A stretch of DNA of 64,000 bases from Brachybacterium equifaecis (lineage in GTDB: Bacteria; Actinomycetota; Actinomycetes; Actinomycetales; Dermabacteraceae): assembly GCF_023509525.1 (NCBI RefSeq), contig NZ_JAKNCJ010000002.1:496001-560000 (forward strand), in the 5' to 3' direction. The notes under the pieces were generated by a model, which was not told where the DNA came from, did not search any database, and saw nothing but the letters and a program-made list of their open reading frames with translations. The translations under genes and the position numbers were made by a program. This document shows, piece by piece, positions 46,591 through 57,082 of the stretch. Positions within the stretch are counted from its first letter, which is position 1, and every line of letters starts with the position of its first letter.

Positions 46591-46621
46591 GCTCAGCCCC
46601 GCTCAGCTCAGCTCCTCGTCA
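46591..46621. repeat. repeated GCTCAG units at the end of the AbgT-type gene
   Basis: GCTCAG occurs at 46591, 46601 and 46606, next to the gene's own TGA (46619-46621 on the minus strand). It is a shorter relative of the stop-codon repeats at 2893 and 44697. Confidence 0.55.
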
Positions 46622-48235
46622 GTTCCCGAGGAAGATCCCGTTGCCCGGCCCGAGCGGCAGGTCCAGGAAGAAGAAGACCGCGAGGATCGCCGTCCACACC
46701 AACCAGAACGGCACCACGAACGGCAGCATCCGGGACATGAGGGTGCCGAACCCGGCGCCCGGCTCGTACTTCCGCAGCATGCCGAGCAGCACGATCATGT
46801 ACGGGTTCATGGGGGTGATCACCTGCGTGGCCGAGTCGCCCACGCGGAACGCCGCCTGCGTGAACGCGGGCTCGTAGCCGATCAGCGCGAACATCGGCAC
46901 GAACACCGCGGCCATGATCGTCCACATGCCCGAGCCCGAGATGATGAACAGGTTCAGCACGCTCGCCAGCAGGATGAAGCCGATGACGGCCGGGAAGCCC
47001 GTCAGCCCGATCCCCTCGAGCGCCTCGGCGCCGGTGACCGCGATCCACGCCCCGATGCCCGACCAGTTGAACAGGGCGATGAAGTTGCCGAGGATGAACG
47101 CGAGCACGATGAACGGCAGCATCTCCTTGAGCGCCTCCGTCATCATCGCGACCGCGTCGCGCGTGGAGCGCAGGGTGCCGGTGATCCAGCCGTAGACCAG
47201 GCCCAGCACCACGAAGTACGCGAAGACGATGAACACGATCGACTGCAGCAGCGGCGACTTCGGCAGGAAGCCGCCCTCCTCGTTGCGCCACGGGGAGTCC
47301 GGGATCAGCACGGCGAAGAGGATCACCGCCGTGAGCAGCACGCCCGCGATCACGGCGAGCAGCAGTCCGCGGTTCTCCTCGCGGCTCAGCTTCGCGCGCA
47401 TGTCCTCCTCCTCTGCCGCGGGAGCCACACCAGCGGTGCCGTCGGCGTCATCGGTCTCGACCTCGTCGCGCGAGACGCCCTGGCGCACCACGCGCGGCTC
47501 GATCACGCGGTCGATGATGAATCCGGCGACGAGCCCCAGCACCAGGGAGGAGGCGATGTTGAACCACCAGTTCGACACCGGGTTCACCGACTGGGTCTCC
47601 AGGTGCGGCAGCGCCTCCATCGCGGAGGTGGTGATGCCGGCGAACAGGGCGTCCAGCGAGGTCGGGAAAATGTTGGTGGAGTAGCCGGCGCCGGCGGCGG
47701 CGAAGCCGCCGAGGAGCCCGGCGACCGGGTGGCGGCCCGCGGCCTTGAACACGAGCGCCGCGAGCGGCGGGATCACGACGAATGCCGAGTCGGCCATGAT
47801 CGAGGCGACCACGCCCACGAAGCCCACCACGTACGGCAGTAGCCATGCCGGGGAGGAGCCGAAGAGCTTCCGGATCCCCGCGCCCAGCAGCCCCGAGTGC
47901 TGCGCGATGCCGATCGCGAGCAGGATCGGGAGGACCGTCAGCAGGGGCGGGAAGCCGATGTAGTTCTGGCCGAGGTTCGTGGTGAGCCAGGTGAGGCCCT
48001 CCCCGGTGAACAGTCCCTTGATCACGGTGGGCTCGTCGGCCCCGGGAACCTGCACCACCACGCCGGCCAGCGCCATCGCGGTGGAGACGAGGCCGGTGAC
48101 GAGGAAGAGGATCAGGAACAGCATGAACGGTTCGGGCAGCTTGTTGCCCAGGCGCTCGATGCCGTTGAGGAGGCGGTCGCCGCGGCCAGACGGCGGCGCC
48201 GATCCGGCGGGAGCGGTCTGCGGGGTGCTGCTCAT
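46619..48235 (-). CDS. AbgT family transporter (aminobenzoyl-glutamate type)
   Basis: A 538-residue membrane transporter of the AbgT family. Known members import p-aminobenzoyl-glutamate, a folate breakdown product, or export sulfonamides. The family-like segments are RLGNKLPEPFMLFLILFLVT at the N-terminus, IMADSAFVVIPPLAALVF, GAGYSTNIFPTSLDALFAGI, a variable acidic loop (DEVETDDADGTAGVAPAAEEE, interrupted here) and a C-terminal FILLASVLNLFIISGSGMW with the VPMFALIGYEPAFTQAAFR block. About twelve hydrophobic segments fit the family. It lies 103 bases downstream of an M20 hydrolase gene, the usual AbgA/AbgB-like partner, which supports uptake followed by cleavage. Confidence 0.93.
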   Translation of the reverse strand: MSSTPQTAPAGSAPPSGRGDRLLNGIERLGNKLPEPFMLFLILFLVTGLVSTAMALAGVVVQVPGADEPTVIKGLFTGEGLTWLTTNLGQNYIGFPPLLTVLPILLAIGIAQHSGLLGAGIRKLFGSSPAWLLPYVVGFVGVVASIMADSAFVVIPPLAALVFKAAGRHPVAGLLGGFAAAGAGYSTNIFPTSLDALFAGITTSAMEALPHLETQSVNPVSNWWFNIASSLVLGLVAGFIIDRVIEPRVVRQGVSRDEVETDDADGTAGVAPAAEEEDMRAKLSREENRGLLLAVIAGVLLTAVILFAVLIPDSPWRNEEGGFLPKSPLLQSIVFIVFAYFVVLGLVYGWITGTLRSTRDAVAMMTEALKEMLPFIVLAFILGNFIALFNWSGIGAWIAVTGAEALEGIGLTGFPAVIGFILLASVLNLFIISGSGMWTIMAAVFVPMFALIGYEPAFTQAAFRVGDSATQVITPMNPYMIVLLGMLRKYEPGAGFGTLMSRMLPFVVPFWLVWTAILAVFFFLDLPLGPGNGIFLGN

Positions 48236-48338
48236 GGGGGGCTCCTGAGGAGATGAGGGGAGGCTGCGGTCGGACGGGGTGCGCGGGGCCGACGGGGCCT
48301 GCGCCGAGACGGCCTGAGCGGGATGCGCGCGAGCGCGC

Positions 48339-49718
48339 TCAGTCGAAGAAGCGGGGCACGTCGATCGCGCCGCCGGCCTGCGCGAACTCCTCGGCGACCG
48401 CTGCGGCGAGCGCGGGATCGTGGAGGACGTCGAGCACGGTGGCGGCGAGGCCGTAGGCGCCGTCGGCCGCAGCGCTCGCCGCCTCCGGGCTGACGGCCGC
48501 GGCCGCGAACTCGCGCGTGTGCAGGGCCGTCTCGGCCGGGGCGATCCGGATGACGGGGTGCATTCCCGGCACGCGATAGGAGACGTTGCCGAAGTCGGTG
48601 GAGGCGGCGAGGGTCTCGGAGACGACGCCGCGCGGCAGGGGGTCGCGGCCGCGACGGCGCTGCGCCTGGACCCAGCGTCCGGTGAGCGCCTCGTTGGTGC
48701 GCACGGGCAGGGACGGCGGGTGCTCGTCCCAGGTGAGGGTGAGGCCGCAGCCGGCCATCATCGCCGCTCCCCGGGCGACCTCCTCCACGCGCGCCGAGAG
48801 ATCGCGCAGCGTCGAGGGCGCGAGCGAGCGCACGTACAGGTCGAGGCGGGCGAGGTCGGGGATGACGCTCGCGCGGTCCCCGCCCTCGCGGATCACCGCG
48901 TGGACGCGGTCCGACGGCGGGGTCTGCTGGCGCATGAGGCCGATGCCCTGGTACATGAGGCTCGCGGCGTCCAGTGCGTTGCGCCCCATGAAGGGCTGGG
49001 CGGAGGCGTGCGCCGTGCGGCCGTGGAACTCGACGGTAAGGGTGCGGCGGCCGAGCCAGGCCTGGTCGGCGAGGTCGTAGCCGTAGGGGTGGGCCATGAC
49101 GGCCGCGTCGATGTCCTCGAGCGCCCCTTCGCGGGCCATGAACTCCTTGCCCGTGTGGCCCTCCTCGGCGGGGGTGCCGAGGAAGACGACTCTCCCGGGC
49201 ACCGCGGCGGGGTCCTCCGCGGCGAGGCGTGCGAGGGCGAGGAACGCGCCGAGGCCCATCACGGCGATCACGTTGTGGCCGCAGCCGTGGCCGACGACCG
49301 GGAGGGCGTCGTACTCGGCGAGGATCGCGAGGGTCGGCGCCCCGTCGGCCCCGGCACCGATCTCCGCGCGCACGGAGGTCTCCAGTCCGTGCACCCCGAC
49401 CTGCGCGTCGATGCCGTGCGCGATCAGGAAGTCGGCGAGGGCGCGCGCCGAGCGGCGCTCCTCGAAGGCGACCTCGGGGTGTGCGGCGAGATCGTGCATC
49501 AGCGCCACCATCTCCTCGGCATCCTCGGCGACGGCGGACTCGAGCTGATCGTGCAGAGCGGTCGGGGCGCCCTGGTGCTCGGACCCTGGGTGGCGGGTGG
49601 TGCGCATCGCCGCCTCGCGCGCCTGGTCGAGCTCGCGGAGGTAGGCGTCCGAGGGGAGGGTGGGCTCCGCCGTCGGAGCGGCCGCGGTGCTGGAGGGGTG
49701 CGTCGCTGCATCTGCCAT
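48339..49718 (-). CDS. M20 family amidohydrolase (AbgB-like)
   Basis: A 459-residue metallopeptidase/amidohydrolase of family M20. After a 60-residue leader come the metal-binding His-Asp pair in LAEYDALPVVGHGCGHNVIA, the catalytic GTPAEEGHTGKEFM (Glu-Glu) and VMAHPYGYDLADQ. A dimerisation insert (TVEFHGRTAHASAQPFMGRN) with its His, and SASTDFGNVSYRVPGMHPV near the end, complete the pattern. It probably cleaves aminobenzoyl-glutamate or another N-acyl amino acid brought in by the AbgT-type protein encoded next. The ATG at 49718 has TAGTGT ending six bases upstream and no ribosome site, so the operon transcript is likely leaderless. Confidence 0.92.
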   Translation of the reverse strand: MADAATHPSSTAAAPTAEPTLPSDAYLRELDQAREAAMRTTRHPGSEHQGAPTALHDQLESAVAEDAEEMVALMHDLAAHPEVAFEERRSARALADFLIAHGIDAQVGVHGLETSVRAEIGAGADGAPTLAILAEYDALPVVGHGCGHNVIAVMGLGAFLALARLAAEDPAAVPGRVVFLGTPAEEGHTGKEFMAREGALEDIDAAVMAHPYGYDLADQAWLGRRTLTVEFHGRTAHASAQPFMGRNALDAASLMYQGIGLMRQQTPPSDRVHAVIREGGDRASVIPDLARLDLYVRSLAPSTLRDLSARVEEVARGAAMMAGCGLTLTWDEHPPSLPVRTNEALTGRWVQAQRRRGRDPLPRGVVSETLAASTDFGNVSYRVPGMHPVIRIAPAETALHTREFAAAAVSPEAASAAADGAYGLAATVLDVLHDPALAAAVAEEFAQAGGAIDVPRFFD

Positions 49719-52022: not shown

Positions 52023-52107
52023 GGAGGATTCGCCTAGCGGCCTATGGCGCACGCCTGGAACGCGTGTTGGGTGCAAGCCCTCGGGGGTTCAAATCCCCCA
52101 TCCTCCG
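52023..52107 (+). tRNA. tRNA-Ser (anticodon GGA)
   Basis: Class II tRNA with an acceptor stem GGAGGAT paired to ATCCTCC and a G discriminator. The anticodon arm is CACGC-CTGGAAC-GCGTG with anticodon GGA, reading UCC and UCU. A long variable arm and the T arm GGGGGTTCAAATCCCCC follow. The CCA end is not encoded. Confidence 0.95.
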
Positions 52108-52241
52108 CCGTGGAACAGCCTCTGACCTGTGTGAATAGCACCGGGTCGGGGGCTGTTCGCGTATCCGGGGGCGGCTCCCGCCTCCGCCCCGGCTCCCCGG
52201 CCCCCGCACCCCCCCGCTTCCGCCTCCGCCCCCGCACAGAA

Positions 52242-52288
52242 CGAGACCGCCCTTCTGTGCCAGAAAGCGGCACAGAAGGGCGGTCTCG
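52242..52288 (-). terminator. terminator of the glucan operon
   Basis: Twenty-base perfect arms (52242-52261 and 52269-52288) around AGAAAGC, 36 bases after the stop of the GH81-like gene. This is one of the strongest hairpins in the window. Confidence 0.88.
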
Positions 52289-52323: not shown

Positions 52324-54348
52324 TCAGCGGCTCATGATGTACGCGTACATGTACGAGCGCGTGTTGCCGTCATCGATCCACTCGTCCGAGAGCGTCTGGG
52401 CCTGCTGCAGAGCCGCGGCCTTCTGCTCCTCGCCGCCGAGCGCGGAGTACATCAGCAGCCAGTCGCCGTAGGTCTGGTTGTAGCCTCCGGCGGCGGTCGC
52501 CTCGCCGATGTTGGTGTCCACGCGGGCCGGGTCCACGCCCAGGAAGTCCGAGCTCGGGCTCAGCGGGAGGGCGAGGATCGCGAGCATCGCCGCCGGCTCC
52601 GGGGAGAACCAGGTGGCGTAGTCGCGCTTGGCCCCGAAGTTCAGCGGGATCACCGTGTGGCCGTAGCCCTGGTAGACGTCCTCCGAGCGATCGAAGTTCG
52701 TCCAGTAGCTCAGGGCGGAGCTCGCCTCGTTCGCCATCATCCACTGCGCCTGGGCGGCGAGCGGATCGTTGCCGGACGCCTCGGCCCACAGCTGGAGGCC
52801 CGCGTAGGCGTTGACCGCCTCCGAGGAGGACTCCTGGTTGTTGCCGTCGGCGAACGGGGAGGTGCCCGAAGCCCACGAATGCGACTGGTAGACGTCGAAC
52901 GTGCGGCGCACCGGCAGCTCGCCGGTGGTGGCGTCGTTCGCGATGTCGGCCGCCAGCAGATCCATCACCGGCGCGAACTCCTCGACCAGAGCCGGGTCGT
53001 CCTTCGCCACCACGCCCGCGGCATAGAGGAAGTATCCGTAGTGGAAGTGATGGTCGTTGTACTCCTCGGAGCCGAATGAAGGGGTCAGCCCGATCACTCC
53101 CTTGTTCTTCGCGTCATAGGCGAAGCAGAACGCGTCGCGCTCGGAGCAGCCGTCGGCCTGGGTCCACTGGCGCATCTGCGTGAGAAGGCGCTCCCTCGCC
53201 GTCGCCGCGGCCTCATCGGCTCCGACCTGCGAGGCGATCGAGTAGAGCATCGCATCGCGGTAGAGCGCCTTGCCGCCGAAGTAGGTATCGGCGGGGTACT
53301 CGGGCGTCGCTCCGACGTCTTCAGCGACCTGCTGGGCCAAGAGCTCCCTCTCGGACTGAGAGAGCCCGCTCAGATCGAGCTGCGCATTCACCGTCTGCTT
53401 CGGGGCACCCCAGCTGAGCTCGGTGCCTGAGCACAGAGAGAGCTCTCCGAACACCGAAGGATAGGTGCCGAGATCGCAGGTCAAGCCGACGAGCGACTTC
53501 TGCTGGTGCGGCATGGCGACGAACGCCGTCTCGCCGCCGCCAGCCGTGATGTACCCGACGGTGGTGGTGACGGAATCAGCCCCCACCTCGTACGTCGCGG
53601 AGGTGCTTGTGAGCGGATCGGCTGCAAGCCCAGCGAGTGCGGCGGCGTCTCCATCCTTCGGCACCGCGAACCAGGAGACGGTCGCTCCCTCCGGCACGTT
53701 CACGACGCTGCCGTCGAGGGTCGCCCCCTCTCCGAGCACCAGCCCGTAGACATCGCCCCCGAGATCGACCTCGTAGTGGTCTCCGGTCTGGACGAACTGC
53801 TGGTCGAGGGTGAGCTCGGCATCCTTGACGGCAGTGAAGCTGACGATCGGTGAGCCTTCGGCGATGACCGTGTCCCCGATCGCACCGCCGCTGGCGTCCT
53901 GCGCCTGCACCGTCACGGAGGCATCGTCGTAGGCGGAGACGACGCTACTGCCGGCATTAGCCACGGTGACGGAGACTGCGGGATTGAAACCGCTGGCGAT
54001 CGTCTTCTCGGTCACCGCGACGGCGGGCATTCCGAACGCGAAGCCGCCCCCCTGGAGACCGAAGCTCAACGGGAGGGGGAACACGGGCTGCGCCTCGTCG
54101 CCGAAGACCAGCCCGGAGAACCAGCGGTTCGTGGGCGGCACGAGGCCCTCCCCAAGGCGCGCGGGCTTGAGGTCAGTCGGCGTCGTGTATTCGGGAACAC
54201 CTGCCGTGAGGGACTGCACCTGCTCGACGCTGAAGACATCGCCGGAGGAGCTGCCTGTGGGGCCCGTCGGCGCGGGACCCTCGCCCATGCATCCGGCGAG
54301 TAGAACGGTGGCTGTCACGAGGGCGGCTGCGCGGACCCGGCGGGTCAT
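52324..54348 (-). CDS. GH81-like endo-beta-1,3-glucanase lipoprotein
   Basis: A 674-residue exported lipoprotein: basic N-terminus, hydrophobic core, then lipobox LLAGC with the Cys near residue 20. Family GH81 features follow: N-terminal VPPTNRWFSGLVFGDEAQPV and LPLSFGLQGGGFAF, then the C-terminal (alpha/alpha)6 part. The latter includes YNDHHFHYGYFLYAAGVVA (conserved Asp), FDVYQSHSWASG, DGNNQESSSEA (catalytic Glu region) and DVYQGYGHTVIPLNFGAKRD. GH81 enzymes cut beta-1,3-glucan. The gene is the last of a three-gene operon with an HlyD-like protein (ATGA overlap) and a GT2 synthase. By analogy with BcsZ in cellulose operons it may trim or release the polymer made by the synthase. Codon use is slightly less GC-rich than in flanking genes. 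Confidence 0.87.
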   Translation of the reverse strand: MTRRVRAAALVTATVLLAGCMGEGPAPTGPTGSSSGDVFSVEQVQSLTAGVPEYTTPTDLKPARLGEGLVPPTNRWFSGLVFGDEAQPVFPLPLSFGLQGGGFAFGMPAVAVTEKTIASGFNPAVSVTVANAGSSVVSAYDDASVTVQAQDASGGAIGDTVIAEGSPIVSFTAVKDAELTLDQQFVQTGDHYEVDLGGDVYGLVLGEGATLDGSVVNVPEGATVSWFAVPKDGDAAALAGLAADPLTSTSATYEVGADSVTTTVGYITAGGGETAFVAMPHQQKSLVGLTCDLGTYPSVFGELSLCSGTELSWGAPKQTVNAQLDLSGLSQSERELLAQQVAEDVGATPEYPADTYFGGKALYRDAMLYSIASQVGADEAAATARERLLTQMRQWTQADGCSERDAFCFAYDAKNKGVIGLTPSFGSEEYNDHHFHYGYFLYAAGVVAKDDPALVEEFAPVMDLLAADIANDATTGELPVRRTFDVYQSHSWASGTSPFADGNNQESSSEAVNAYAGLQLWAEASGNDPLAAQAQWMMANEASSALSYWTNFDRSEDVYQGYGHTVIPLNFGAKRDYATWFSPEPAAMLAILALPLSPSSDFLGVDPARVDTNIGEATAAGGYNQTYGDWLLMYSALGGEEQKAAALQQAQTLSDEWIDDGNTRSYMYAYIMSR

Positions 54349-55082
54349 CGCAGGCCGATCTTCTGGAGGAAGTCCATCATGGCGTCGGCCGGTCCGGCGA
54401 GGAAGCCCTCGCTTCGAAGCTGAACCGTGACGATCACCGGCGCCCCGTCCGTCGCCAGCAGGGTCAGATCGGACTCGTCGAGCTCCTTGCTGATGATCCG
54501 GGCTTCGGTGAAGGCCTGGCCCTCCTCCGTCGTCACCTGCGCGGAGACCACCTCGCCCGTCACCGTGGTGTTGTCCGGGAGGAGGATGGTGGCCTTCGCG
54601 CCCTGCTCGAGGCGGCCGTAGTCCCGCGGAGAGAGCTGGAAGTCAGCCATCACGGTACGGGGCGTGGACTGGACGATCGTCGCCAGCGGGGTGGAGCCGA
54701 TGATGTAGCCGCCCTGGATGGCATTGAGCTCGGTGATCGTGCCGTCTGCCGTCGCCTTGTAGACGACGGTGCCCTCGGCCGGATTGATGTCCGTGGCGAT
54801 GTCCGAGGAGGGCTCCACGCCGTTGGCTGCGTCCGCCAGGAGCGCAGGGCTGGAGAGTGTGAAGAGGACCTGGCCCGCGGTCACAGTGTCCCCGAGCTCG
54901 ACCTGCTGATCCGTGACGATGCCCGTGTACTGGGCTCCGATCACGAACCGGGGCTGCTCGATGACCGCAGTGGTCGACTGCACATGAGCCTGGCGCTGGG
55001 TGAACACGAGGATGAGGAAAGCGAGAACGGCGAGCAGCAGGATCGCAGAGCCGAGCAGACGGAAGCGGTTGCTCCAGGTCAT
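54345..55082 (-). CDS. HlyD/biotinyl-lipoyl-like membrane-anchored protein
   Basis: A 245-residue protein with one N-terminal membrane helix (LGSAILLLAVLAFLILVFTQ, about residues 10-29) and an extracytoplasmic barrel-sandwich domain. The two lipoyl-like halves are marked by FVIGAQYTGIVTDQQVELGD-TVTAGQVLF and by TVVYKATADGTITELNAIQG-GYIIGSTPLA. A beta-barrel part follows (VMADFQLSPRDYGRLEQGAK). Such membrane-fusion-like proteins, for example Alg44, accompany GT2 synthases of extracellular polysaccharides. The ATG overlaps the stop of the synthase gene and the stop overlaps the start of the GH81-like gene, so all three proteins are probably made together. It likely guides the polymer or stabilises the synthase complex. 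Confidence 0.85.
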   Translation of the reverse strand: MTWSNRFRLLGSAILLLAVLAFLILVFTQRQAHVQSTTAVIEQPRFVIGAQYTGIVTDQQVELGDTVTAGQVLFTLSSPALLADAANGVEPSSDIATDINPAEGTVVYKATADGTITELNAIQGGYIIGSTPLATIVQSTPRTVMADFQLSPRDYGRLEQGAKATILLPDNTTVTGEVVSAQVTTEEGQAFTEARIISKELDESDLTLLATDGAPVIVTVQLRSEGFLAGPADAMMDFLQKIGLR

Positions 55083-57082
55083 CGGGGGTTCCTTCCGGAG
55101 GAGGTGTCGTTGGTCGCGGAGTGCGTGGAGCCGGGGTTCTCAGCGGGGTCGCTGGTCCAGGCGTCGGTGGAGGGGCCGTCAGGACTCGGGCGCTCTGCCA
55201 CCGCGGTCGCCGCGCCGCTCACCATTCGGCGCCGCCTTCCCCGGCGGTGAGACTCCTCTTCCGGCGTGACCGGAGGGGCGACACGCGAAGGGGTGAAGGA
55301 CCGGCCCAGGGGCGGCGGGAGCGCCCGGCCCAGCGACTGCGAGGTGTCCGGCTCGGTCGGCTCCATCCCGAGCTCGTAGAGAATCGTGTCGGCCGGGGTG
55401 GTCATCGGCGCCGGAGCGGCGAGGAGGCTTGTGACCCATTCGTTCTTCAGCGCGAGTCCCGGATCGGTCTCGCCGTTCCGGCGCGTCTCGCGCTGCTCGC
55501 CGAAGGCGACCAGGATGAAGACGCCGAGGATCACAGTGTTCAGACCTGCCCAGAGCGTCGCGATCGACAGCTCGCTGTTGATGTCGTCCCGCCATGCGCC
55601 GACGAAGGTGGTGACGAGCAGGAGGATGAAGGTGAGCACCTGCGGGATCATCACGTTGAACGGGGAGCGCCGCTTGACCGTGCCGGTCACGCTCCACGCC
55701 TGGTCCCGGCCGATGATCACGTTGTAGAGGGCCTTCGCGTAGATCGGGAAGGAGCAGGCCGCGAGCATCAGGACCTCCCAGCGGAAGGAGCCCAGGGTGA
55801 AGAACGCCAACGCCACCTGCACGACGTAGAAGCCTGCGTAGAACAGCGCCCAGGTCTCCCATGTGACGTCCAGGGAGACCGGCCGGAGATCGAAGAAGAT
55901 CTCGAGCACGGGGACCAGCAGGAGCAGACCGGGGACGATGCCCGTGAGGTAATGGCTCGCGGTCACGAAGTACATCAAGCGCTGATCCAACGTGAGCCGA
56001 CGCCGGGGGCTCAGAGGATTCGACTGGAGCAGGATCTCGAAGCCACCGGTCGCCCAGCGCAGCTGCTGCTTAGAGAACGCCTCGATCGTGTCGGGGGCGT
56101 CTCCGATCGCGAGAGTCGTCGGGAGGAAGATGGACTTCCATCCGCGCTCGTGGAGCTTCAGGGAGGTCCAGACGTCCTCGGACTTCGACTCGGTGTACAT
56201 GCCGCCGATGTCGTCGATCGCTGCGCGACGGAACACCACGTTCGTGCCCACGCAGAACGCCGCGTTGAAGTGGTTGCGTCCGGGCTGCAGGAAGCGGTAG
56301 AACATCGCCTGCATGTAGCCCGCTCCGCGCGAGATGAAGTTGTGCAGGTTGCCGTATGTCTGCGGCGACTGCACGAAGGCGACCGTCTGGTTCTCGAAGA
56401 ACGGCAGCGTCTCCTCCAGCAGCCCCGGCAGCGGGATGAAGTCAGCGTCGAGGATGACGTAGAACTCCCCGGAGGTCATGCTCAGCGCATGGTTGACGTT
56501 GCCGGCCTTCGCGCCGTTGCTCGACAGGCGGCGGATGTACCGGCAGCCGATCTCCTCAGTGAGGGCCCGGACCTCATCGGAGTGGCCGTCATCGAGGATC
56601 CACACCGTGTGCTTGCCGCGCACGTTCATCGCTGCCGTCGCAGTCCTGCGGATGACATCGATCGGCTCGCCGTAGACCGTGATGAAGATGTCGACGGTGA
56701 TCGGCTTGCCGTTCAGGCGCATCGGCCACGCGGACGGCGTCTCCTTCAGGCCCTTCTTGAGGATGCTCTTGGCGCTGTACAGGTTGTCGCGAGCACGGAA
56801 GTAGTCGAACGTGCGCACCTCCTTGGAGCCCGCCAGGATCGTCCACATCGCGAAAAGTGCGTGGAAGAGCAGGATCGCCTCGGAGATGATCACGATCAGC
56901 CAGGGGAGGAGGTCGCCGCGATGGCTCGGCTGGAGCAGGAAGCCCGCATAGCCGAGGACGCCGATCGTCGCGATGATCGTCATCACGATCATGACGGGCG
57001 AGTATCGATCGCGAACTGCTTCGCGCCTACTCACAGGGTCGAAGCGGTCCACTGCCGCATAGTCGTGCAAGGGGCTGGACAT
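55079..57082 (-). CDS. processive GT2 family glycosyltransferase (glucan/cellulose synthase-like)
   Basis: A 667-residue membrane-embedded synthase. Two N-terminal helices (about 27-75) precede the cytoplasmic GT2 domain. Its motifs are WILDDGHSDE (near 162), VILDADFIPLPG (near 210), ESKSEDVWTSLKL (near 300) and KQQLRWATGGFEIL (near 337): the D, DxD, ED and Q-x-x-R-W set of processive beta-glycan synthases. Five or more helices follow, then a disordered Pro/Ser/Arg tail of about 110 residues. A C-terminal PilZ domain, common in bacterial cellulose synthases, is absent. The ATG at 57082 has GGAGG upstream; 15 earlier codons are not family-like. Coupling with a GH81-like glucanase suggests a beta-1,3-glucan product, but beta-1,4 or mixed linkage cannot be excluded. 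Confidence 0.88.
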   Translation of the reverse strand: MSSPLHDYAAVDRFDPVSRREAVRDRYSPVMIVMTIIATIGVLGYAGFLLQPSHRGDLLPWLIVIISEAILLFHALFAMWTILAGSKEVRTFDYFRARDNLYSAKSILKKGLKETPSAWPMRLNGKPITVDIFITVYGEPIDVIRRTATAAMNVRGKHTVWILDDGHSDEVRALTEEIGCRYIRRLSSNGAKAGNVNHALSMTSGEFYVILDADFIPLPGLLEETLPFFENQTVAFVQSPQTYGNLHNFISRGAGYMQAMFYRFLQPGRNHFNAAFCVGTNVVFRRAAIDDIGGMYTESKSEDVWTSLKLHERGWKSIFLPTTLAIGDAPDTIEAFSKQQLRWATGGFEILLQSNPLSPRRRLTLDQRLMYFVTASHYLTGIVPGLLLLVPVLEIFFDLRPVSLDVTWETWALFYAGFYVVQVALAFFTLGSFRWEVLMLAACSFPIYAKALYNVIIGRDQAWSVTGTVKRRSPFNVMIPQVLTFILLLVTTFVGAWRDDINSELSIATLWAGLNTVILGVFILVAFGEQRETRRNGETDPGLALKNEWVTSLLAAPAPMTTPADTILYELGMEPTEPDTSQSLGRALPPPLGRSFTPSRVAPPVTPEEESHRRGRRRRMVSGAATAVAERPSPDGPSTDAWTSDPAENPGSTHSATNDTSSGRNPR

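Follow-up and report, generated by a model that had tools for sequence, protein, structure and literature searches.

The 64,000-nucleotide stretch of Brachybacterium equifaecis DNA analysed here (contig NZ_JAKNCJ010000002.1, positions 496,001 to 560,000; hereafter the window) carries a three-gene operon whose predicted product is probably a curdlan-like beta-1,3-glucan, made by a Gram-positive member of the Actinomycetota. The operon combines a processive GT2 glucan synthase, a short HlyD-like protein and a lipoprotein of the GH81 endo-beta-1,3-glucanase type. Judged from sequence, no other single feature points to beta-1,3 bonds as strongly as the GH81 protein, and the remaining evidence is consistent with it.

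Organization of the operon

All three open reading frames lie on the minus strand. The synthase gene (55079..57082), recognized from its open reading frame and from domain and motif searches, encodes 667 amino acids from an ATG at 57082. It is followed by the gene for the HlyD-like (membrane-fusion-type) protein of 245 amino acids (54345..55082; open reading frame, Pfam match and structure model) and by that for the 674-amino-acid GH81-type lipoprotein (52324..54348; open reading frame, Pfam match, motifs and lipobox). Both joints are 4-base ATGA overlaps, located at 55079..55082 and 54345..54348. The first of these suggests translational coupling of the synthase and the HlyD-like protein. Among the collected loci, 78 of 93 GT2-HlyD pairs share this exact 4-base overlap. 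For the HlyD-GH81 joint, 68 of the 75 pairs with a GH81 start in reach offer a possible start that would give a 4-base overlap. A hairpin with a perfect 20-bp stem (52242-52261 with 52269-52288) and a 7-base loop lies 35 bases beyond the GH81 stop (52242..52288, minus strand).

The first-pass annotation of this DNA had placed the three frames at these positions and joined them by two ATGA overlaps. It had read them as a GT2 synthase with a full motif set and no PilZ domain, an HlyD-like single-pass protein and a GH81-like lipoprotein, closed by a 20-base perfect terminator. The positions, the overlaps and the three protein descriptions were all borne out by the searches described below. The perfect stem was likewise confirmed, while its role as a terminator is only plausible, no T run having been seen after the hairpin on the minus strand.

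The GH81 protein

In Pfam searches, the GH81 C-terminal domain (PF17652) scored 197.2 bits against a cut-off of 25.6, and the N-terminal domain (PF03639) stayed under its cut-off (15.3 against 25.6 bits). A phmmer search of solved structures matched a GH81 enzyme with an E-value of 7.4e-51; the alignment to structure 6fop begins at residue 68, and the N-terminal region is weakly covered. The motifs NDHHFHYGYF and NNQESSSEA are intact and align with those of CtLam81A and BhGH81, and a Glu stands where the E515A mutant structure 6fop has Ala. Beyond that Glu, we take the catalytic residues to lie in these two motifs, which the protein has retained. The structure model, built with 4 sequences, is of low confidence (mean predicted local distance difference test score, pLDDT, of 63); even so, GH81 chains account for every one of its top 15 matches among solved structures, and several of these carry laminari-oligosaccharides.

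The window protein has a lipobox, LAGC, at residues 17-20 (Cys20), in agreement with the lipid anchor proposed for it in the first-pass annotation. As a general rule this anchor does not hold, and universal lipid anchoring of the trio GH81 proteins was rejected: a crude lipobox pattern matched 43 of 80 linked GH81 genes, and the N-termini of the seven Cellulomonas trio proteins inspected had a hydrophobic stretch and no lipobox. That stretch is perhaps a membrane anchor and perhaps a cleaved signal peptide, two options that the sequence does not distinguish. Retention at the membrane, by whichever means, may be the conserved point.

Conservation of the gene trio

Searches with the window GH81 protein gave matches in 3 of 38 genomes of the genus, the window's own included, and the family (3 of 47) added none. 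In the survey of the order, GH81 matches were present in 61 of 396 genomes and could be split by score into a trio type (E ≤1e-98) and a second type, usually in longer frames (E 1.5e-57 or weaker). The trio type was found at 57 places in 53 genomes, again counting the window's own. At 51 of the 57 places, HlyD-like and GT2 genes lay upstream on the same strand, and at one more (L058) an HlyD-like gene was followed by the contig end. None of the 23 loci of the longer type had an HlyD-like or GT2 neighbor. These neighbor tests used loci with 1.5 or 6 kb flanks, some of them cut by contig ends. The match in G195, at E 6.6e-4, was left out of the places, as was the second piece of a gene in G401, and two adjoining long-type matches in G274 were treated as one locus, which reduced 24 places to 23 loci. 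Fisher tests on the linkage ignore shared ancestry and are descriptive only.

When all collected loci were considered, 80 of 86 distinct trio-type GH81 genes had the same gene order and strand, which puts the arrangement beyond chance. The trio first noticed in the window is a real, conserved operon. The phylum survey gave matches in 6 of 396 genomes, and the five besides the window's own held the weaker-scoring type. A common genomic position of the trio within the genus was rejected, as the five window flanking genes tested were not near the trio in either of two congeners (G002 and G019).

These surveys bear on the possibility that the GH81 protein is directed at foreign beta-1,3-glucan, as a scavenging or antifungal enzyme, and shares an operon with an unrelated synthase by chance. 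GH81 enzymes are mostly catabolic, five trio-type proteins stand without partners, and a longer GH81 gene closely follows the trio in nine Cellulomonas genomes, which shows that hydrolases can accumulate at this place. Such an enzyme would not be expected to be linked to the synthase at 51 of 57 places when the longer type is linked at 0 of 23, to occur in 39 of 40 Cellulomonas genomes with the GT2 and 0 of 20 without it, or to be joined to its neighbor by 4-base overlaps. In addition, the trio-bearing species C. fimi and C. gilvus were reported not to grow on curdlan (PMC3544764). We therefore regard a chance association as very unlikely.

Some loci depart from the common arrangement. Three trio-type GH81 genes without partners lie in other neighborhoods (L064, L068 and L078), and the frames inspected showed no clear signal peptide or lipobox before the domain. 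In four loci (L062, L067, L074 and L080), the trio is accompanied by another GT2 from its clade, which has several hundred extra tail residues and is followed by its own HlyD-like gene. The idea that this second cassette holds another hydrolase was rejected, as the three proteins scanned showed only GT2 domains and long tails. In a Patescibacteria metagenome-assembled genome (L014, 3324-7197), a GH81 gene (708 residues, hydrophobic N-terminus) and a GT2 gene are adjacent and divergent. This GT2 has the motifs ICVGTN and AED and sits on a long branch of the tree; in this single case the pairing may or may not have had a separate origin.

The GT2 synthase

The synthase carries the motifs DDG, DAD, FCVGT, SED and QxxRW (as QQLRW) and has a long tail without PilZ. 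None of the three trio proteins matched PilZ up to an E-value of 1, and neither a BcsB nor a BcsZ domain was found in them with Pfam. The best curated model was CelA, at 234.4 bits and far from its equivalog cut-off of 699.1; the PgaC/IcaA and NodC models gave 64 and 22 bits. The best solved relatives were BcsA structures.

For comparison, an Agrobacterium plasmid locus (L129) with an HlyD gene, a GT2 gene and a third gene was taken as crdASC because its GT2 has all seven residues numbered in CrdS (Q237, Q259, F262, K270, H374, W422 and H442; PMC6821405) and its first gene has 1455 bases against 1458 given for crdA (PMC10819609). The BgsA references were an unannotated match on pSymB of Sinorhizobium meliloti 1021 (L130) and its Rhizobium leguminosarum relative (L131), the latter labelled 'Curdlan synthase' in its own record; we infer that both are BgsA because of the plasmid that carries the first and the close relationship between them.

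The tree was built with 23 of the 84 GT2s of the trio clade, a number that includes the GT2s of the second cassettes; own_L001 and own_L003 were left out. The trio GT2s formed their own clade (support 92/99), outside both the CrdS branch and the BgsA branch. CrdS, BgsA and two further GT2s grouped together (99/96), and BcsA stood apart (80/97). The branching order among these three groups is left open by the tree, which raised long-branch warnings, CrdS included. By these scores and this tree, the synthase falls neither with the cellulose synthases nor with CrdS, to which the first-pass annotation had suggested it be compared; no separate comparison with hyaluronan synthases was made.

At CrdS positions 237 and 259, all 84 clade GT2s have Gln, and at position 270 all have a basic residue (Arg in 79, Lys in 5). 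In the four BcsA sequences, position 237 is His, position 259 is Asn or Gly and position 270 is never basic, whereas the two BgsA sequences agree with the trio at all three positions. Position F262 does not discriminate in the alignment. The C. cellasea relative of a second Cellulomonas GT2, discussed below, has Gln237 and Lys270 and an Ala at 259. The pair FCVGT and SED in the 12 trio GT2s shown is shared only with CrdS among the aligned references, CrdS being represented by one sequence; the two BgsA sequences carry FCCGS and TED.

These data speak to two alternatives on the nature of the polymer. A cellulose synthase operon with an unusual glucanase would agree with CelA as the best curated model and BcsA as the best solved relatives. 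It accords poorly with a score so far under the CelA cut-off, with the separate GT2 clade and with the absence of PilZ, BcsB and BcsZ domains from the three proteins. All 84 trio-clade GT2s have Gln where BcsA has His276 and Asn298, and a GH81 protein occupies the slot of the cellulase. Cellulose as the product is, in our view, extremely unlikely.

The main alternative is a mixed-linkage beta-1,3/1,4-glucan like that of BgsBA, in which the GH81 protein would cut occasional beta-1,3 runs or act on another substrate. BgsA is also a GT2 with an HlyD-like partner (PMC9495663; locus L131), a GT2 of the Gram-positive Romboutsia ilealis is reported to be able to make mixed-linkage glucan (PMC10374906), and Gln237, Gln259 and basic 270 are common to BgsA and the trio. 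Because BgsA agrees at these positions, the residues speak against cellulose and not for curdlan over a mixed-linkage product, and the GT2 sequence alone does not appear to separate the two. The motifs FCCGS and TED of the two BgsA sequences differ from the FCVGT and SED of the trio and CrdS, and BgsA is activated by c-di-GMP (cyclic di-GMP), for which the window's genome lacks a GGDEF match. Furthermore, GH81 enzymes require contiguous beta-1,3 bonds. The rhizobial polymer, described as alternating perfectly between 1,3 and 1,4 bonds (PMC9495663), would be a poor fit to such an enzyme. A mixed-linkage product is for these reasons unlikely, and a curdlan-like one remains the preferred reading.

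Two other routes to the linkage were tried and rejected. In the phylogeny, relations are unresolved and branches long, and the tree speaks only against membership. Hidden Markov model distance was equally uninformative, as the trio profile scored BcsA, BgsA and CrdS alike (188-233 bits).

The HlyD-like partner and c-di-GMP

The HlyD-like protein of the window matched HlyD_3 in Pfam with 53.2 bits against a cut-off of 22.2. Its structure model (mean pLDDT 64) has a single N-terminal membrane helix (residues 3-28), two lipoyl halves and a barrel part of low confidence, and its best solved matches are membrane fusion proteins. The long helical hairpin between the lipoyl halves is absent from the model, which has only an 8-residue helix there. 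From a weak Biotin_lipoyl match to the HlyD_3 match the distance is 33 residues here, against 193-195 in the two reference partners with both matches. The model would fit a protein that caps the exit or guides the chain at the outer surface of the membrane, and probably not one that forms a tunnel to an outer membrane. An HlyD-type partner of such synthases can, it appears, exist without a hairpin reaching the outer membrane. The trio gene lies downstream of its GT2, whereas in four reference loci of the CrdS/BgsA branch (L015, L129, L131 and L134) an HlyD-family gene lies directly upstream of the GT2.

The window's genome, which is 99.56% complete, gave no match to GGDEF, and the same search matched 8 of 14 control genomes. 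Control by c-di-GMP as in BcsA or BgsA, the latter reported to be activated by this molecule (PMC9495663, PMC5567048), is therefore unlikely here.

Curdlan production in Cellulomonas

The genus Cellulomonas connects the trio to a known polymer. A trio locus is present in C. cellasea (L013), and the trio-bearing genomes apparently include those of C. flavigena, C. fimi and C. gilvus. A GT2 match (E ≤1e-60) was found in 40 of 60 Cellulomonas genomes; trio-type GH81 was present in 39 of these and in none of the 20 others. In the exception (G420), the GT2 and HlyD-like genes lie on a 4.7-kb contig with fewer than 600 bases after the HlyD gene. In total, trio-type GH81 occupied 51 places in 50 of the 81 genomes searched. 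In one genome (G440; L205, 5209-6656, plus strand), two separate frames together make up the GT2.

Descriptions of Cellulomonas curdlan go back decades, with a 1990 patent and later papers in the reference list of PMC3544764. That source reports abundant curdlan in C. flavigena, which is also named as a producer in PMC10819609, and calls the reuse of curdlan in this species unclear. It further describes, in each of its genomes, a pair of GT2s that are 35-39% identical to the Agrobacterium curdlan synthase (PMC3544764). In the accessible part of its text, the account of the curdlan genes ends with these 2013 candidates, which rest on that identity, and the HlyD and GH81 neighbors are unnamed. 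C. gelida was described as not producing curdlan (PMC3035266).

In C. fimi, C. gilvus and C. flavigena, interpolated gene indices for the trio GT2 were 3454, 1506 and 3172, against the tags Celf_3456, Celgi_1506 and Cfla_3154, and those for the other GT2 were 3587, 937 and 2649, against the published 3585, 939 and 2615. The interpolation assumes that the genes counted are coding sequences, tRNAs and three per rRNA operon. Owing to this agreement, the trio GT2 probably corresponds to one of the two curdlan-synthase candidates listed in 2013. The other candidate carried FFCGS and TED, of cellulose type, in all three genomes (L217, L218 and L219), and the C. flavigena trio GT2 carries FCVGT and SED. 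In the C. cellasea homologue of the other candidate (L128), the catalytic domain is interrupted by a large insert.

The longer GH81 gene just downstream of the trio GH81 was identified by coordinates in nine genomes (G423, G426, G428, G432, G451, G454, G455, G459 and G471), of which five were checked (L197-L201) and one was scanned; the scanned protein has GH81, CBM6 and fn3 domains. That the longer type never adjoins the trio was accordingly rejected as a rule, as it holds in the order sample and not in these nine genomes.

Predicted product and mechanism

Several observations weigh against a curdlan-like product made by the trio. The GT2 is not inside the CrdS clade, the CrdS residues His374, Trp422 and His442 occur in 0 of 84 clade GT2s, and BLAST found no similarity of the HlyD-like or GH81 protein to CrdA or CrdC. 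The residues that are shared with CrdS, Gln237, Gln259 and basic 270, are also found in BgsA, a mixed-linkage synthase, and two of them (Gln237 and Lys270) in the C. cellasea relative of the second Cellulomonas GT2, which is itself the other listed candidate for the curdlan synthase. Neither an HlyD-like nor a GT2 gene accompanies trio-type GH81 at 5 of 57 places (G132, G210, G346 and second copies in G312 and G266). Little curdlan was reported for the trio-bearing C. fimi and others, and the failure of C. fimi and C. gilvus to grow on curdlan counts here as well (PMC3544764). Finally, a GH81 protein without a typical leader was reported in the culture supernatant of C. fimi (PMC4780727). This species has two GH81 matches, either of which could be the supernatant protein; if it is the trio enzyme, the tether is not firm.

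Set against these points, the first-pass proposal of a beta-1,3-glucan system with a tethered glucanase as an analogue of BcsZ came through the sequence tests, which are indirect, and the GT2 by itself cannot fix the linkage. In the mechanism that we consider, the GT2 would use UDP-glucose to extend a beta-1,3-linked glucose chain and pass the chain through its own membrane channel, independently of c-di-GMP. On the outer face, the HlyD-like protein, anchored by one helix, could cap the channel exit or guide the chain, and lacking the long hairpin it would need no outer-membrane partner. The GH81 protein, tethered outside by its lipid or, in Cellulomonas, perhaps by a hydrophobic helix, would cleave the chain as it emerges, which could free it, resolve tangles or set its length, and the same enzyme may later recover glucan held in store.

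A more far-reaching proposal is that the trio is the missing Gram-positive curdlan machine, with a c-di-GMP-free synthase clade and a tethered glucanase that is an obligate, translationally coupled subunit, editing and releasing the chain and recycling the store, and that it makes the curdlan of C. flavigena. We would put this at somewhat better than even. The trio would offer a small, testable gene set for the long-known Cellulomonas curdlan and suggests a route by which a cell could release and reuse its own glucan. It may also serve as a genomic marker for curdlan-type polymers across the order, perhaps also in Patescibacteria.

Other features of the window

The sole tRNA gene of the window, a tRNA-Ser (GGA) at 52023-52109 on the plus strand, lies close downstream of the operon hairpin. 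At 46619-49718 on the minus strand, a putative AbgT-type transporter gene adjoins a putative M20 amidohydrolase gene, both recognized by eye; the pair would suit the use of aminobenzoyl-glutamate.

Comparison with known systems

A literature search by title and beginning of abstract, in a collection that lacks most subscription journals, returned no description of a GT2-HlyD-GH81 trio among the matches listed. To that extent, the statement of the first-pass annotation that no well-described system has this exact trio stands, although it had missed the nearest analogues, crdASC and bgsBA.

The crdASC operon of Agrobacterium resembles the trio in pairing a GT2 of the same superfamily with an HlyD-family partner and a third protein, and CrdS has FCVGT, SED, Gln237, Gln259 and basic 270. 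CrdA is itself of the HlyD family (HlyD_3 at 24.3 bits, cut-off 22.2). It differs from the trio in that CrdA has 484 residues against 245 for the trio protein, which lacks the hairpin, in that the trio GT2 is outside the CrdS branch, and in that GH81 takes the place of CrdC. No CrdC homologue was found among the three trio proteins at E 0.01. In CrdC (L129, 7068-8348, plus strand), no Pfam family exceeded its cut-off and a match to an endo-beta-1,2-glucanase was weak (E 0.0027); CrdC may thus be a hydrolase-like fold filling the position held by GH81 in the trio.

The bgsBA genes of Sinorhizobium and Rhizobium also pair an HlyD-like protein with a GT2 without PilZ. Unlike the trio, they are described as a two-gene operon, and so without a glycosidase (PMC9495663), their synthase is activated by c-di-GMP and its motifs are FCCGS and TED. 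An HlyD-GT2 pair that groups near CrdS and BgsA is also present on pAtC58 of Agrobacterium fabrum (L015, 2456-5626, plus strand). The Romboutsia ilealis GT2 is, like that of the trio, a Gram-positive enzyme forming beta-1,3 bonds, likened here by description only, and its linkage is mixed (1,3;1,4) (PMC10374906). The terms HlyD, gene cluster and membrane fusion are absent from the text of that article.

Two cellulose systems complete the comparison. The bcs operon shares with the trio a processive GT2 and a dedicated endoglucanase (BcsZ), whereas PilZ and BcsB are absent from the trio, the acceptor-site residues differ and the trio glucanase belongs to a beta-1,3 family. The clostridial ccsZABHI operon is likewise a Gram-positive synthase operon with a cognate glycosidase; unlike GH81, CcsZ is a GH5 endo-beta-1,4-glucanase, and the term HlyD is absent from the text (PMC7710045). 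On curdlan, CcsZ activity was reported as not significant in a quantitative assay and limited in a plate assay (PMC7710045). Altogether, the combination of a synthase with a glycosidase is of a kind already known, and the trio is most likely a curdlan-type, Gram-positive version of it.

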